Of a stretch of DNA of 64,000 nt, positions 1,996 to 36,710 are shown piece after piece (within the stretch, counting starts at the first letter, position 1; every line of letters starts with the position of its first letter). Origin of the DNA: Thermoplasmata archaeon (lineage in GTDB: Archaea; Thermoplasmatota; Thermoplasmata; Lutacidiplasmatales; UBA184); the NCBI GenBank assembly GCA_022750195.1, contig JAKIWE010000002.1, positions 62,001-126,000 on the forward strand. The letters run 5' to 3'. The notes beneath the pieces were generated by a model. The model was not told the origin of the DNA and did no database searches. It was given only the letters and a program-made list of their open reading frames with translations. A program made the position numbers and the translations under genes.

Positions 1996-3372
1996 GTGAG
2001 CGAACCGTCCGGCACCTCACCGCCGGGAGACCCCCCGCCCGTCGGTCCGACGGGTCGGTCGGCGGAGTACTGGGCGCGGTACCGCGCGCTCGCGCCGAAG
2101 TACTTCTGGGCCGAGGAGACCCGTTCGGCCAGCATCGTGGTCGCCGGCGCGGAAGGCTCCACGCTGAAGGATGCCGACGGCCGGACCTACATCGACCTCA
2201 CGAGCCAGTGGTCGACGAACAACCTCGGGAACGTCCACCCTGAGGTGCTTCGAGCGAGCGTCGACGCGCTCGGCCGGTACGGGTTCCTGATCTATTTCCT
2301 CCACCCGCATCTCCCGATGATCGAGCTCTCCGAGAAGCTGCTCGAGATCCGACCGTCCCCGAACCTGACCCGGGTCTTCCTCGAGCTCTCTGGGACCGGG
2401 GCCGTCGAGGCGGCGGTGAAGCACGCGGTCCAGACCAGCCGACGACCGCTCGTGCTGAGCTTTCTCGGCCAGTACCACGGGCTCAGCATCGGCACGGGGG
2501 CGATCGGCTCGTTGAGCTCGGAGGAGCGGCGACACTGGGAGCCGTACCACGGAGGGAGCGTCCACGCGCCCTACCCGGCCCCGTACCGCCGCCCCGCGGG
2601 GATGTCCGAGACGGAGTTCGGCGAGTCGATGTTAGGGTACCTCGAAGAGCAGCTGCTCCGTTACCAGGCCGCCCCGGACAGGATCGCCGCCGCGATCCTG
2701 GAGCCGGTCGCCTGCGAGGCGGGGATATGGATCCCCCCGAAGAACTTCGTCCGGGGCCTTCGGCGACTCTGCGACGCGCACGGGTGGTACTTCATCGCGG
2801 ACGAGGTCGAGACCGGCCTCGGCCGGACGGGCTCGATGTGGGCGATCGACCACTTCGGGGTCGCTCCGGACCTTCTGACGATCGGCAAGGGGATCAGTGG
2901 AGGCCTCCTCCCGATCTCGGCCGTGCTGGGCGACGAGCGGTCGATGGGGGAGGAAGGCGTCGCCGCAGGTACGACCTTCGCCGGTCACCCGGCCGCCTGC
3001 GTCGCGGCGTCGACGACGATCGACATCCTACGCCGGGACCGTCTCCCCGAGCGCTCGGCGCGTCTCGGAGCCCACGCCCTGAAGCGGTTGCAAGAGTGGA
3101 CGGCGTGGGAGGGCATCGGGGACGTCCGCGGTCTCGGCCTTTGCCTCGGGGTCGAGCTCGTCCACAACAAGGACCCACGCCGGCCGGACCCTAAGACGAC
3201 CCGCGCCGTGTTCTTCGATTGCGTCGCCCACGGGACACTTCCGCTCTACAACTACGGGGACAACGTCCTCCGGGTCCAGCCGCCGCTCACGATCGAGGAG
3301 CCGCTCCTCGACCAGGCTCTCGACACGTTGGGAGAGGCGCTGCGAAGGCACCTGCCCAAGACGGCCAGTTAG
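1996..3372 (+). CDS. Class III omega-aminotransferase
   Basis: A 458-residue fold-type I PLP enzyme starting at GTG. Visible landmarks are the N-terminal DADGRTYIDLTSQW block, LSGTGAVEAAVKHA for cofactor binding, FIADEVETGLGRTGS with the pyridine-stacking Asp, and IGKGISGG with the Schiff-base lysine. This combination is typical of 4-aminobutyrate, ornithine/diaminobutyrate and polyamine aminotransferases, which yield an aldehyde and glutamate or alanine. Two aldehyde dehydrogenases about 18 kb downstream could take the aldehyde further. It is divergent from the SRPBCC gene and convergent with the saccharopine-dehydrogenase-like gene. It differs clearly from the other two class III enzymes in the window, so these are not recent duplicates. 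Substrate cannot be read from the sequence. Confidence 0.88.
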   Translation: MSEPSGTSPPGDPPPVGPTGRSAEYWARYRALAPKYFWAEETRSASIVVAGAEGSTLKDADGRTYIDLTSQWSTNNLGNVHPEVLRASVDALGRYGFLIYFLHPHLPMIELSEKLLEIRPSPNLTRVFLELSGTGAVEAAVKHAVQTSRRPLVLSFLGQYHGLSIGTGAIGSLSSEERRHWEPYHGGSVHAPYPAPYRRPAGMSETEFGESMLGYLEEQLLRYQAAPDRIAAAILEPVACEAGIWIPPKNFVRGLRRLCDAHGWYFIADEVETGLGRTGSMWAIDHFGVAPDLLTIGKGISGGLLPISAVLGDERSMGEEGVAAGTTFAGHPAACVAASTTIDILRRDRLPERSARLGAHALKRLQEWTAWEGIGDVRGLGLCLGVELVHNKDPRRPDPKTTRAVFFDCVAHGTLPLYNYGDNVLRVQPPLTIEEPLLDQALDTLGEALRRHLPKTAS

Positions 3373-32896: not shown

Positions 32897-33865
32897 CTAC
32901 GCCCACCCGAGCCCGTGAAGCCACCACGCGAAGGCGAAGCCGCCGGCCGCCCCGGAGCTAGGACCCAAGGCCCAGCCGGCGAGCAGGTCTCGGATCGTCG
33001 TCCATCGGACCGTCGACCGGTGTCGGGCGACGCCGGCGCCGAGCATGCCCCCGACCAGCGCCTGGTTCATCGAGGTGAAGTACCCTAGAGAGACGAAGCC
33101 GAGGATCACGCCTGCCTGCGTGAGTTGCGAGGCGATCGCCATGCGCGGGTCGAGCCGGACCAGGCCGAAGGCGACCCGCTCGAGCAGCGGACGTCCCCAA
33201 GTGAACACGCCGAGCGCGAGCCCCGCGCCTCCGACCAGGGCCGCCGTCAGGAGGCCGAAGAGACCGGTCATCACGAAGGCGCCCGAGGCGTTGGCGACGT
33301 CGTTCGCCCCCATCGCAAAGGAGGCTCCGGCGCCGACCGCCACGAGGCCAGCGACGGCGACCGAGCTCAGCTTCGCTGAGGGAGCGGAGACTGGGCGGAA
33401 CCGGTCCGCGGTCCGGACGATCGCATACCCCAGCGCGAACGCCGCGACCGGGGCCGACGCCCAGACGAGGAGCAGGGTGCCGATCGTCCCCCAGTGAACG
33501 GATTCTCCGGTGGCCAAACCGGCTCCCACGGCCGAGAAGACGAGGATCTGTATCGTGGAGGTCGGGAGAGAGAGGAAGTTGTAGGCGCTCGTGAGGGCCA
33601 ACGCCACGACGACGATAGCGAGCGCGAGGCCGACGCTCACGCTGCCCCCGCCGAGGATTCCGTGGCCGACCGTTTGCTCGACGGCCCGGCTCCCTAGCGC
33701 TGCCCCCACGAACGCCAGGACGCCCATCAGCAGCAGGGCCGGAGCGACGCGAATCGCCCGCGCCGCGTACGGCATCCCCATGCACGCGCCGGTGTAGTGG
33801 GCGCCGATGCTCACCGCGAAACCGAACGCGGCGACGATCAGCAGGTCGTCCTCCGGGGCGAGCAT
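32897..33865 (-). CDS. PiT-family inorganic phosphate permease
   Basis: A 322-residue integral membrane protein with about ten hydrophobic segments. The PiT signature GANDVANASG is in the second half, and an equivalent, degenerate repeat HYTGACMGMPYAA sits near the N-terminus (usually also GANDxxN), showing the internal duplication of this family. PiT proteins import phosphate (or sulphate in some members) driven by a cation gradient. The N-terminal repeat has lost the Asn-Asp pair, which is unusual and may change ion coupling. No phosphate-regulatory PhoU gene is next to it. The upstream gene is the transposase/aminopeptidase fusion on the same strand, 41 bp away. Confidence 0.83.
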   Translation of the reverse strand: MLAPEDDLLIVAAFGFAVSIGAHYTGACMGMPYAARAIRVAPALLLMGVLAFVGAALGSRAVEQTVGHGILGGGSVSVGLALAIVVVALALTSAYNFLSLPTSTIQILVFSAVGAGLATGESVHWGTIGTLLLVWASAPVAAFALGYAIVRTADRFRPVSAPSAKLSSVAVAGLVAVGAGASFAMGANDVANASGAFVMTGLFGLLTAALVGGAGLALGVFTWGRPLLERVAFGLVRLDPRMAIASQLTQAGVILGFVSLGYFTSMNQALVGGMLGAGVARHRSTVRWTTIRDLLAGWALGPSSGAAGGFAFAWWLHGLGWA

Positions 33866-33906: not shown

Positions 33907-36126
33907 TCACGGATCCAGTCGGCCGTCCGCGAGGACGGTGCGCCCGTCGATCGCGAGCCGCGCGCCCCGCAGGTTGAGCCAGGCCCACCAGCCGAGTTTG
34001 GTCGTCCCACCAACGTGGTCGTTGCGACCGATCAACAGCGTGAGCGTCCCGAGCCCCTGATCTTCGAGGAGGGGGGACATGCTGATCTTCGGATTGAGCC
34101 CGATCGAGAGGGTGCCGGGGCGGTCCCGCCCAGCCCCGGCCCGCGCGTAGCTCGGGGCGAAGAACTCCCGGCCCTCCTCGTAGGTGAACCGGGTCAAGCG
34201 GCCCTTGACGAACGTCCACCGTCCGCCCGCGAAGTCGCCGACGGTATCGGAGAGCCCCACCGAGCTGCGGACGTTGCTGCGAAAGACCCCGTCGGCGGCT
34301 CGCTCGTCGAGCGCGACGGTCACGACCCCGGCGGGGAGCGTCGCCATCGACCACGCCCGGTTCGGTGAGGCGGGGGGGACGATGCCGTCGTCGAGCGTCG
34401 GGGTTCGGCCGCGGAGGTACAGGCGAAGATCGGTCCCATTCGGATGGGTGATCTGCAGCTCACGCCCGCGTTCGAGGCGGCGCGCGAGGGCTTGGCCGAC
34501 CTGGTGCAGTTTGGTCGGGTCGACGAGAGTTCCGCCGATCAGCTCCTCCCTCCACTGCGCGAGGTCGACGCCGTACATGCGCGCGGACGCCTCCGACGCC
34601 CGCCCCACCGCCATCAGCACCGCGCGCGCCCCGCTCCGCTCGGCCGCCCGGTACATCGCGTCCTGGAACTCGCCGAGCTGGAACATCGTGTTCCGGGGCA
34701 TCGCGTGCACGCGCTCCCGGTCGCTCGGCCCGAAGAAGCTCACCAGGACGTCGGTCCGTTCGAGCGCCGCGCGCCGGTGCTCCCCGAGCCGTGCGAGGAA
34801 CTTCGGGGGCACCTCCGAGGCCGCGGCCCAGTAGGTCGGCTCGTCCTGGTACAGAAGGAGCGGCCGCGCCCCGAGACGAAGCGACTCGAGCACGAAGGCG
34901 TTCGCACTCGCGAGCGTCTCGCTCCAGCTCTCGATCGTGACGTGGTCGCCGCCCCGGACTCTCAGGCACTTGCGGAGGACCGTACGTGCGAGTTCTCGGT
35001 CCCGGCTCGTTCCTCGCGGGGGGTCACTCATGGGTTGATGGACAGGGTCGGCGGGTTTGAAGGCCGCATGGCCCGTAACGGCTAGGTCGTAGCGTAACCG
35101 GGCGGCCGCCGCGCCGGTCCGGATCTCCTGGCGACTGGCGGTCCACTCGAACGGTCGGCCTCCCTCGGGATACGACGCGACAAAGCCGGCGATCGACCTC
35201 GCACGCTCGGCGGAGCTCTCGCGACCTGGTCGCGCGGCTCGGCCGAGTTGGCGCAATTCGTCCAGCGTGCGCGCGCGCCAGCGCTCCGGCCGATGCAGCG
35301 ATTCCAGGCGTACGTTGGGATGCCGGACGCTCCAACGGGCGATCTCCGGGGCCCCCTGGAGCGACGGGCCGGCCGCGAGGACGCGGACGTCCTGGGAGGG
35401 CTCGACCCGTCGTTGCACCGCTCCGAGGAATCGTAGAAGTTCACGGCCCCCGCTTCGAGTCGTCGCGCGGTCGTTCGCATCGTCGCGAAGGTCCCGGAGC
35501 ACCTCGGTGAGGCGAGGCCTCGGCCACTCCGAGGTCGAAGGGCGGGAGCCCGGTGCCTCCCCGGAAGCGGCAGTATTGGACGGTGCAGCTGTGGGTGATC
35601 CGAGGACGAGGGCCACGGCGTAGTCCGGCGGACGAAGAAAGACCCCCGCCACCTCGGTCGCGGTCGGCGCCCCCGTGGGGTCAGGGCGGAGCGGGCGCGG
35701 CTCGAAACGGGTCGGGGCGATGCCGTACGCCTCCCAGACACGACGGACGGTCATGTGGCTCACGCCAAACCGGCGGCCCAGGGCGCGCGTGCTCTGACCG
35801 AGCCGTCCGGACGCGCCGGTCGAGACCGTGGCTCGCACGATGCGTTGCACGGTCTCCGCCGGGACGACGCCACGTCGGGGCATCCTCTCGACCTCGCCGG
35901 CGATTCCGCGGAGCCGAGCGACCGAGAACCGCTCCCGCCAGCGGGCGACGGTCAGTCGATGCATCCCGAGCTCGCGCGCGATCCGCAGGTTCTGGGCCCC
36001 GTCGGCCGCCCTCAGAGCGATCGTCGCACGCCGCGCGCGCTCCGGGGAACCCCGACGGGCCCGGCTCCATCGAAGCAGCGTCTCTCGCTCCTCAGCGCTC
36101 AGCGTCAGGCGCGGCGCAACCCTCAC
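33907..36126 (-). CDS. Single frame: inactive IS630-type transposase fused to an M29-like aminopeptidase
   Basis: One uninterrupted 739-codon frame from GTG 36126. Residues 1-150 are a textbook IS630 N-terminus with two helix-turn-helix units (ARELGMHRLTVARWRERF and RRFGVSHMTVRRVWEAYG). Residues 157-331 follow the IS630 catalytic domain colinearly (VFLRPPDYAVALVL ... RPFEWTAS), but all three catalytic acids are gone: VLCVDEK is VALVLGS, LVLDN is VLAAGPS, and the LNQVE Glu is missing. From Met 366 (35031) the frame is an aminopeptidase T (M29)-like protein of 374 residues, ending with the GLNPKI...LLIGRNDHVGGTTKLG region. Expected M29 metal ligands are partly unclear. Either a true fusion is made or the peptidase starts at ATG 35031. 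The open frame despite loss of catalysis suggests reuse of the DNA-binding part. Confidence 0.75.
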   Translation of the reverse strand: MRVAPRLTLSAEERETLLRWSRARRGSPERARRATIALRAADGAQNLRIARELGMHRLTVARWRERFSVARLRGIAGEVERMPRRGVVPAETVQRIVRATVSTGASGRLGQSTRALGRRFGVSHMTVRRVWEAYGIAPTRFEPRPLRPDPTGAPTATEVAGVFLRPPDYAVALVLGSPTAAPSNTAASGEAPGSRPSTSEWPRPRLTEVLRDLRDDANDRATTRSGGRELLRFLGAVQRRVEPSQDVRVLAAGPSLQGAPEIARWSVRHPNVRLESLHRPERWRARTLDELRQLGRAARPGRESSAERARSIAGFVASYPEGGRPFEWTASRQEIRTGAAAARLRYDLAVTGHAAFKPADPVHQPMSDPPRGTSRDRELARTVLRKCLRVRGGDHVTIESWSETLASANAFVLESLRLGARPLLLYQDEPTYWAAASEVPPKFLARLGEHRRAALERTDVLVSFFGPSDRERVHAMPRNTMFQLGEFQDAMYRAAERSGARAVLMAVGRASEASARMYGVDLAQWREELIGGTLVDPTKLHQVGQALARRLERGRELQITHPNGTDLRLYLRGRTPTLDDGIVPPASPNRAWSMATLPAGVVTVALDERAADGVFRSNVRSSVGLSDTVGDFAGGRWTFVKGRLTRFTYEEGREFFAPSYARAGAGRDRPGTLSIGLNPKISMSPLLEDQGLGTLTLLIGRNDHVGGTTKLGWWAWLNLRGARLAIDGRTVLADGRLDP

Positions 36127-36158: not shown

Positions 36159-36202
36159 GGACGGAGGAACTTACGACGAGCGCTTCGAGTTACACCTGAT
36201 CC

Positions 36203-36236: not shown

Positions 36237-36710
36237 ATGGGAGCCAACCCCCACCGACCTCGGTCGACGCGTAAAGCCAGTGCCGCCACCGCCTCGGAGT
36301 TCGCCCCGGGTCTCTTCGTAGGAGGATGGAAGGACGCCGAGAAGTTCTCGGGCACCCGGTTCTGTGTCCTCGACGAAGCCCCGGAGGGGATGCCGGACGG
36401 GGTGCACGTCGCGATCTACGACGGAGAGAAGGACACGCCGATCCTGGAGAACCTCGAGCGCGTCGCCGGGCTCATGCACGCCGCGGCGAGGAAGAACGAG
36501 AGAGTGCTCGTTTACTGCGGGCACGGAGTGCGCCGCTCTCCGCTGGCGGCGGCCTGGTACCTCCATCGGTTCGCAGCCCTCCCTCTCGACGAGGCGTACG
36601 CCAAAATACGCGGCGTTCGCCCGCAGGTCGAGGAGGCCAAGGAGTGGATGGAACACTGGCAGGTGCTCGAAACGGCGACGACGGCGCGCGCGGGCCGGTC
36701 CGCGCGCTGA
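36237..36710 (+). CDS. Dual-specificity protein phosphatase family protein
   Basis: A 157-residue phosphatase. The signature loop VYCGHGVRRSPLAAAWYL contains the catalytic Cys and Arg in the Cys-X5-Arg-Ser pattern; the residue before the Cys is Tyr instead of the usual His. The N-terminal LFVGGWKDAEKF block and the expected helix after the active site are typical of small archaeal dual-specificity phosphatases. The general acid Asp is probably in YDGEKD. It removes phosphate from Tyr and Ser/Thr of proteins, or possibly from RNA 5' ends or small molecules. A RIO kinase lies 4 kb away, with no direct link visible. It has its own TATA element and is divergent from the fusion gene. Confidence 0.82.
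   Translation: MGANPHRPRSTRKASAATASEFAPGLFVGGWKDAEKFSGTRFCVLDEAPEGMPDGVHVAIYDGEKDTPILENLERVAGLMHAAARKNERVLVYCGHGVRRSPLAAAWYLHRFAALPLDEAYAKIRGVRPQVEEAKEWMEHWQVLETATTARAGRSAR

Follow-up and report, generated by a model that had tools for sequence, protein, structure and literature searches.

Why should a transposase that has lost its catalytic residues keep its reading frame open and run without a stop codon into a domain of an entirely different kind? The question is raised by an open reading frame (ORF) on the minus strand of a 64,000-nt stretch of DNA from a Thermoplasmata archaeon (contig JAKIWE010000002.1, positions 62,001 to 126,000; hereafter the window), in which an earlier note made from the sequence alone had seen a catalytically dead IS630-type transposase joined to an M29-like aminopeptidase, i.e., a domesticated DNA-binding module or a new regulator-peptidase fusion. 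The joined frame could be confirmed as a single ORF of 739 aa that combines an IS630-derived part lacking the Asp-Asp-Glu (DDE) acids with an M29-like domain (the N half and C half in the following); its first 140 residues score as IS630-type helix-turn-helix (HTH) domains and its second half scores weakly as M29 in Pfam. As far as genome sequences can tell, comparison with relatives shows a conserved fusion with conserved synteny and coding constraint in which both active sites are lost and which is accompanied by two DNA elements at fixed distances. We lean towards the view that this gene encodes a domesticated DNA-binding fusion acting on its own locus.

Of 103 genomes of the family, at least 14, with that of the window counted, have a complete copy of the fusion without internal stops (12 of 78 in its genus and two in a second genus; up to 10 candidates were scored per genome), so that the same fusion does recur in several genomes as the earlier note had hoped, and a fifteenth copy (G089) is divided across contig ends. 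The carriers are high-GC Thermoplasmata, i.e., Lutacidiplasma and apparent kin, a genus and order described from acid soils with ca. 69% GC (PMC9287336, in part). For 400 sampled genomes of the class, mostly with five candidates scored per genome, the N-half matches listed outside the family all lay in frames of 394 aa or less. All 12 aligned fusions start with ATG or GTG at one position and end with TGA, and the fusions are monophyletic both in the N-half tree (100/100) and in the C-half tree, where the drawn branch has 99/99 and the group test gave 100/100. A divergently transcribed gene for a dual-specificity-phosphatase-like protein lies beside 14 of 14 complete fusions. How loss of the fusion looks in this family is shown by two genomes: G071 retains at the syntenic place (L099, 4037-4948) an internally deleted remnant of both halves that lacks the promoter element described below, and in G012 a gap of 323 bp without any fusion match separates the phosphatase and permease genes.

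An open frame by itself is unconvincing in such DNA, with p ~0.002 for 365 codons at the GC content of the window, and long chance frames are plentiful there (36 frames of at least 500 aa). Together with an ATG or GTG at codon 366 at a fixed distance in 11 of 13 loci and the faster evolution of the N half, this could suggest that only the M29-like protein made from codon 366 matters and that everything upstream is a decaying transposon held open by GC-richness. However, the ratio of nonsynonymous to synonymous substitutions (dN/dS or omega; NG86) between the window and its nearest relative is 0.20 for the HTH part, 0.29 for the middle, and 0.27 for the N half as a whole compared with 0.17 for the C half (at a nearest-pair dS of ca. 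1.0-1.6, and 0.7 in the short stretch of residues 301-360), i.e., both halves appear to be under the purifying selection that the earlier note had made its test. Complete copies also keep start codon and frame, and two loci without any start at codons 352-376 (L056 and L059; genomes G084 and G017) nonetheless keep an M29 domain 63-64% identical to that of the window, while the one decayed copy that was found (G071) has lost most of the gene together with the left element. A GC-rich chance frame over a decaying transposon was rejected on these comparative data (14 stop-free copies, kept start, and omega), and we hold this explanation to be very unlikely indeed. The conserved fusion, the kept frame, and the constraint on both halves instead justify the word "domesticated".

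In the N half, HTH_23 scores above the Pfam gathering threshold and HTH_32 more weakly, so that two IS630-type N-terminal HTH units are present, as they are in all 28 members of the set A4, where both profiles match at E ≤0.01. DDE_3 matches eight of the 28 set members scanned at the same threshold and has no match in the window fusion at E up to 1. On the NCBIfam IS630 model NF033545 (cut-off 100), the window reaches 44.2 bits over residues 32-150 and two intact copies of the same genus reach 247 and 239 bits. The columns of the catalytic triad read G-A-L in the window versus D-D-E in seven intact copies of the genus, in agreement with the proposed catalytic death, and the fusions (n=11) have at most one triad acid each (E in L088 and L075, D in L095). 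The proposed colinearity with IS630 held as well, as the order of parts and the last residues correspond (VTGH versus SVTAH or SRTAH followed by a stop). A structure search with the N half gave no significant match to an RNase H fold; structure models of the fusion predict residues ca. 183-218 to be disordered, and the middle of the N half to which they belong is its least constrained part. Judged by the catalytic features in these alignments, the fusion is not a member of IS630.

The C half was found to have the M29 fold, though its Pfam M29 score of 20.1 stays below the gathering threshold of 27 (outgroup L064: 143.2). All five metal ligands are replaced in the window (V601, T672, T696, W714, and W716), and none of the ligands E250, E316, H345, H376, and D378 of M29 enzymes is kept in 13 of 13 fusions or in any of the 32 stand-alone paralogues examined in the genus; the class outgroups L063 and L064 have five of five, and five other outgroup rows have between 0 and 4. 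"Aminopeptidase" is therefore no fitting name for this protein, whose catalytic metal site is lost, and in an enzymatic sense "regulator-peptidase fusion" does not fit either; in terms of catalytic residues, the fusion does not belong to M29. It might still be proposed that the C half is enzymatically active by another chemistry, or through another metal site, and is recruited to DNA by the N half, but the complete absence of canonical ligands across fusions and paralogues argues against this, as does the observation that a bona fide M29 enzyme loses its activity on single substitutions in its EEHYHD residues (PMC7023490, in part), and we consider it quite improbable.

Between the divergent start codons of fusion and phosphatase, a motif search across 13 upstream regions found the bipartite motif TG[GT]AAC-(~14)-C-TAT with a score of 370, compared with 203 or less in ten shuffled sets. 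The shuffled sets were searched with fewer restarts and rounds than the real ones, and we thus relied on leave-one-out scores instead, by which this left element is present in 13 of 13 loci (11.2-30.3). The 99th percentile of 984 background 130-mers from the window was 5.0, and only one of them exceeded 11, with a score of 23.3 that probably represents the window's own left element. At 15 of the 17 fusion-less phosphatase loci (L090 and L098 were left out), one of which carries the decayed fusion, no value above 3.1 was obtained on either strand. The strict pattern occurs seven times in 13 genomes, six of them at the fusion promoter, and a model of the left element (R1), searched at E ≤1, matched 12 of the 13 fusion genomes once each, at the element's own promoter, and had no match in four other genomes. 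Counting outward from the left element, 11 of 13 loci have the phosphatase ATG (checked by translation and BLAST) at a distance of 42 nt, and the other two at 41 nt.

Such fixed spacings to start codons could also be expected if the two elements were ordinary promoter parts for outward leaderless transcripts that the fusion protein does not bind. Pointing the same way, 12 of 13 loci have a TAT/ATA sequence at 16-19 nt from the left element on its outward side, ca. 25 nt before the ATG of the phosphatase, and the fusion's own TTAT box is overlapped by the left element. However, the genomes searched have the bipartite element almost nowhere outside the fusion locus, and none of the 15 tested phosphatase promoters that lack a fusion carries it. 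It is thus not a general promoter part, and we regard this alternative as unlikely.

A second, right element was recognized inside the coding sequence of the fusion. When the reverse strand of the 2.2-kb coding sequences was scanned with the left-element matrix, the best minus-strand match lay at the homologue of window codons 343-352 in 11 of 13 loci (scores 8.1-20.3), and no right element was seen at the homologous place in L056 and L059. Leu344 is encoded by TTA in nine of 11 aligned rows, a codon that makes up 13 of 829 leucine codons. In 1000 synonymous redraws, p was 0.001-0.028 in those 11 loci and 1.0 and 0.34 in the other two, and 455 control windows gave a mean z of 0.05 with 13 at z ≥2.5. 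This constraint on synonymous codons indicates that the DNA is kept here and not the peptide alone.

All 11 loci with a right element have an ATG or GTG exactly 42 nt away on its outward side, i.e., at codon 366, where a start codon is conserved in 11 of the 13 loci overall, and a short M29-only product may thus be made in addition to the fusion. L056 and L059, the two loci without a right element, are also those without a start at codons 352-376, so that their M29-like domain seems to be made only as part of the fusion. Of what the earlier note had named as refuting its interpretation, relatives with the M29 part alone from Met 366 and neutral decay upstream, the conserved start codon points partly that way, but those two loci do not, and the upstream half does not look like neutral decay. 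No consistent Shine-Dalgarno sequence was seen by eye before codon 366, and the search for a TATA box yielded just an unconvincing TTCAAR at ca. -30.

The position of the elements suggests where they came from. In intact IS630 copies (L034, L035, L038, L040, and L043), the TAG stop codon of the transposase belongs to the right inverted repeat, and loss of the outermost bases of the element can consequently open the frame downstream. The right element lies at the place of this right end, where last codons and stop join the inverted repeat (GTT ACG GCC CAC TAG in L043); fusion locus L004 still reads GTT ACG GCC CAC and shares the short identity GTTACGGCCCAC with the end of L043. The two elements are mutually inverted and 1075-1146 bp apart, and the intact IS630 copy L034 spans 1146 bp. 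CTAG ends were not seen at either element, of which the inner boxes are apparently kept, and CTAGTGKG has no match in the window (1.22 expected by chance). In local alignments to intact IS630 ends, the window and L051 alone stand out. We therefore base the fossil inverted-repeat claim, for which profiles fail in both directions (see below), on place, orientation, spacing, and short identities, by which the elements seem to be surviving transposon ends.

These elements are almost private to the fusion locus in the genomes searched. With model R3, built from both elements, 10 of the 13 fusion genomes gave two matches at the locus and the other three (G084, G017, and G372) one each, and among the candidates scored there was one further weak site across the 13 genomes (G005). 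At E up to 5, no R3 site was found in six of seven fusion-less genomes, and the seventh (G042) has one weak site. Intact IS630 copies with DDE_3 are present in the genus and dead transposases can be dominant negatives, so the fusion might instead repress transposition by occupying the ends of those IS630 copies of its genome that are still active. This explanation fits poorly with elements that are nearly private to the fusion locus and with a fusion-element model that does not match intact IS630 ends, and it leaves the M29 half and the fixed spacing unexplained; we consider it rather improbable.

Several observations weigh against a selected fusion with elements of its own. The N half evolves faster, with a median omega over 65 of 66 pairs of 0.51 (HTH part 0.42, middle 0.67 and up to 1.1) compared with 0.34 for the C half, though dS is largely saturated in these pairwise medians, and its GC content is high at second and low at third codon positions. 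In L057, the best left-matrix match is on the plus strand elsewhere (10.3 versus 8.5). A model built from 12 intact IS630 ends does not detect any fusion element, nor does the fusion-element model detect an intact IS630 end, both at E up to 10, and on average the fusion promoters resemble intact ends locally no more than chance would give (mean z 0.48). As R1 and R3 had these very sites for training, self-hits are expected and the news is the lack of other sites, and for six fusion genomes only 150 of the first-look candidates were scored with R3. Finally, the named relatives are nine records of metagenome-assembled genomes of Thermoplasmata, one of them Candidatus Lutacidiplasma silvani.

Table 1. 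Coordinates of the fusion gene, its parts, the two elements, and the neighboring genes in the window.
Feature	Position	Strand	Basis or remark
Fusion ORF, 739 aa	33907..36126	minus	GTG start at 36126, TGA stop
HTH unit 1, residues ~28-75	35902..36045	minus	Pfam HTH_23; helices in structure model
HTH unit 2, residues ~110-136, highly conserved VSHxTVRRxW	35719..35799	minus	Pfam HTH_32/HTH_50; alignment
Putative remnant RNase H-like (DDE) domain, residues ~155-318	35173..35664	minus	Without catalytic acids; colinear with intact IS630
Fossil transposase C-terminus, residues 344-353 LRYDLAVTGH	35068..35097	minus	Compared with ...SVTAH-stop / ...SRTAH-stop in intact IS630
Right element CCGTAAC...GCGTAACCG, 28 nt	35073..35100	plus	Site of former right inverted repeat
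Possible internal start codon ATG 366	35029..35031	minus	42 nt outward of right element
M29-like domain without metal ligands, residues 373-739	33910..35010	minus	Ligand alignment
Left element, 28 nt, consensus TG[GT]AAC...C-TAT	36168..36195	minus	Between divergent start codons
Divergent dual-specificity-phosphatase-like gene (157 aa, DSPc)	36237..36710	plus	ATG 42 nt outward of left element
PHO4/PiT-type phosphate permease	32897..33865	minus	Downstream in 11/14 fusion loci; context, outside fusion

The phosphatase-like protein of the window matches DSPc and keeps a CX5R motif (CGHGVRR), and its homologues are present in 34 of the 78 genomes of the genus. Locus L101 (G063, ca. 2410-3161) contains a second homologue of the phosphatase and, in divergent orientation to it, a short piece resembling the N half, and in L053 (G045, 58-369) a C-terminal piece of another M29-like gene lies just past the phosphatase near a contig end. 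M29-like proteins form a large family in the genus, with matches in 76 of 78 genomes and up to nine matches per genome, fusions included. No transposase remnants were found next to other M29-like genes at 16 stand-alone loci with flanks of ca. 1.5 kb or less, and the same remnant queries recovered the positive controls L002 and L034; longer alignments into the stand-alone flanks were taken as over-extensions.

The family also has stand-alone IS630-derived ORFs, of which we counted 17 at loci L034-L050 (excluding the partial L045 and the broken L049): seven with D-D-E, eight clearly without, and two with D-D-D (L046, which also lacks a middle stretch of the ORF, and L050). Those without D-D-E are found at L036, L039 (both strands), L041 (both strands), L044, L046, L047, L048, and L050, including two loci, L039 (G093) and L041 (G053), where two different such genes adjoin on opposite strands. 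They sit in clades separate from the fusion, and the pair L036/L048 has an omega of 0.21. Immobilized IS630 genes may thus be common in this archaeal family.

The explanation that we favor, a domesticated fusion acting on its own locus, would begin with an IS630 element that inserted between the promoters from which the phosphatase and the M29-like gene were transcribed in opposite directions, with both promoters surviving. The insertion would then have lost its DDE acids, its outermost CTAG ends, and the transposase stop codon, through which the transposase frame came to run into the M29-like gene. What would have been kept under selection are the DNA-binding part with its two HTH units, the M29-like fold, and the two inverted elements at the former ends. 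The two HTH units would bind both elements and, with such private sites, the fusion protein would act almost only on its own locus: bound at the left element, it may control the phosphatase and itself, and bound at the right element, where present, the short M29-like product from codon 366, and in L056 and L059 the fusion seems to be the sole possible product. Once bound, the two ends may come together as in a transposase end complex and so form a loop of ca. 1.1 kb, and the metal-free M29 pocket, in which invariant Trp residues occupy two former ligand positions, could sense a peptide, small molecule, or partner and so set the switch. Taken to its full extent, this would make the whole dead transposon a self-contained switch in which the fusion loops the two fossil ends to tune the phosphatase, itself, and the short M29 product, a doubtful proposition that we put forward tentatively. 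The symmetry of the two elements around their midpoint may in part be coincidence.

Capture of a transposase as a host regulator is known from animals, and the fusion may work in an analogous way. In the case of CSB-PGBD3 of primates, the plain protein is produced alongside the fused one, and the latter binds sequences directly inward of the former element end (PMC3459987, in part); in both cases, a transposon was captured at a host gene and the fusion was kept long after mobility had been lost. However, splicing joins host exons there and binding sites are hundreds and dispersed, whereas here IS630 read-through created the fusion and sites are apparently confined to the locus. Another parallel is the "cis-acting factor" ADF-1L, which is likewise transposon-derived, has retained its DNA preference, and acts as a regulator of the gene encoding it and of an adjacent one, though it is an animal PIF/harbinger derivative that acts via histone acetylation and the abstract describes no enzyme-fold fusion (PMC11893794). 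Unlike the M29 aminopeptidases AmpT (2ayi), PepS (4icr), and AmpS (1zjc), the fusion has all five ligands replaced and a DNA-binding part added. CgnE and CgnB of crocagin biosynthesis (6zsu, 6zsv; PMC10070186, in part) differ from it in being bacterial and without a DNA-binding part, and CgnE has two ligands changed. The fusion resembles IS630 transposases, of which intact copies occur in the same genus, in its two HTH units, colinear domain order, and C-terminal motif, but it lacks their DDE acids, CTAG ends, and own stop codon and stays below the NCBIfam cut-off.

TnpB-derived regulators are, like the fusion, prokaryotic mobile-element proteins turned regulators, but they are RNA-guided, not of DDE type, and not known to be fused to a host enzyme fold. 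No archaeal fusion of a DDE transposase to a host enzyme fold was found in those parts of the open-licence literature that we covered. A review of the recruitment of prokaryotic mobile elements contains neither "IS630" nor "fusion" in its main text, and the transcription-factor examples in the passages covered come from Xre and RHH proteins (PMC8987985).

If our interpretation is right, this family of loci would show side by side the intact transposon relatives, a decayed copy, a fusion-less locus, and operators under selection. The question of how a transposon becomes a regulator would then be testable with one protein and two 28-bp DNAs. In the more doubtful form of a looped switch, the locus would be an archaeal counterpart of the host-transposase fusions of animals in which both inverted repeats are selected, one of them inside a coding sequence.
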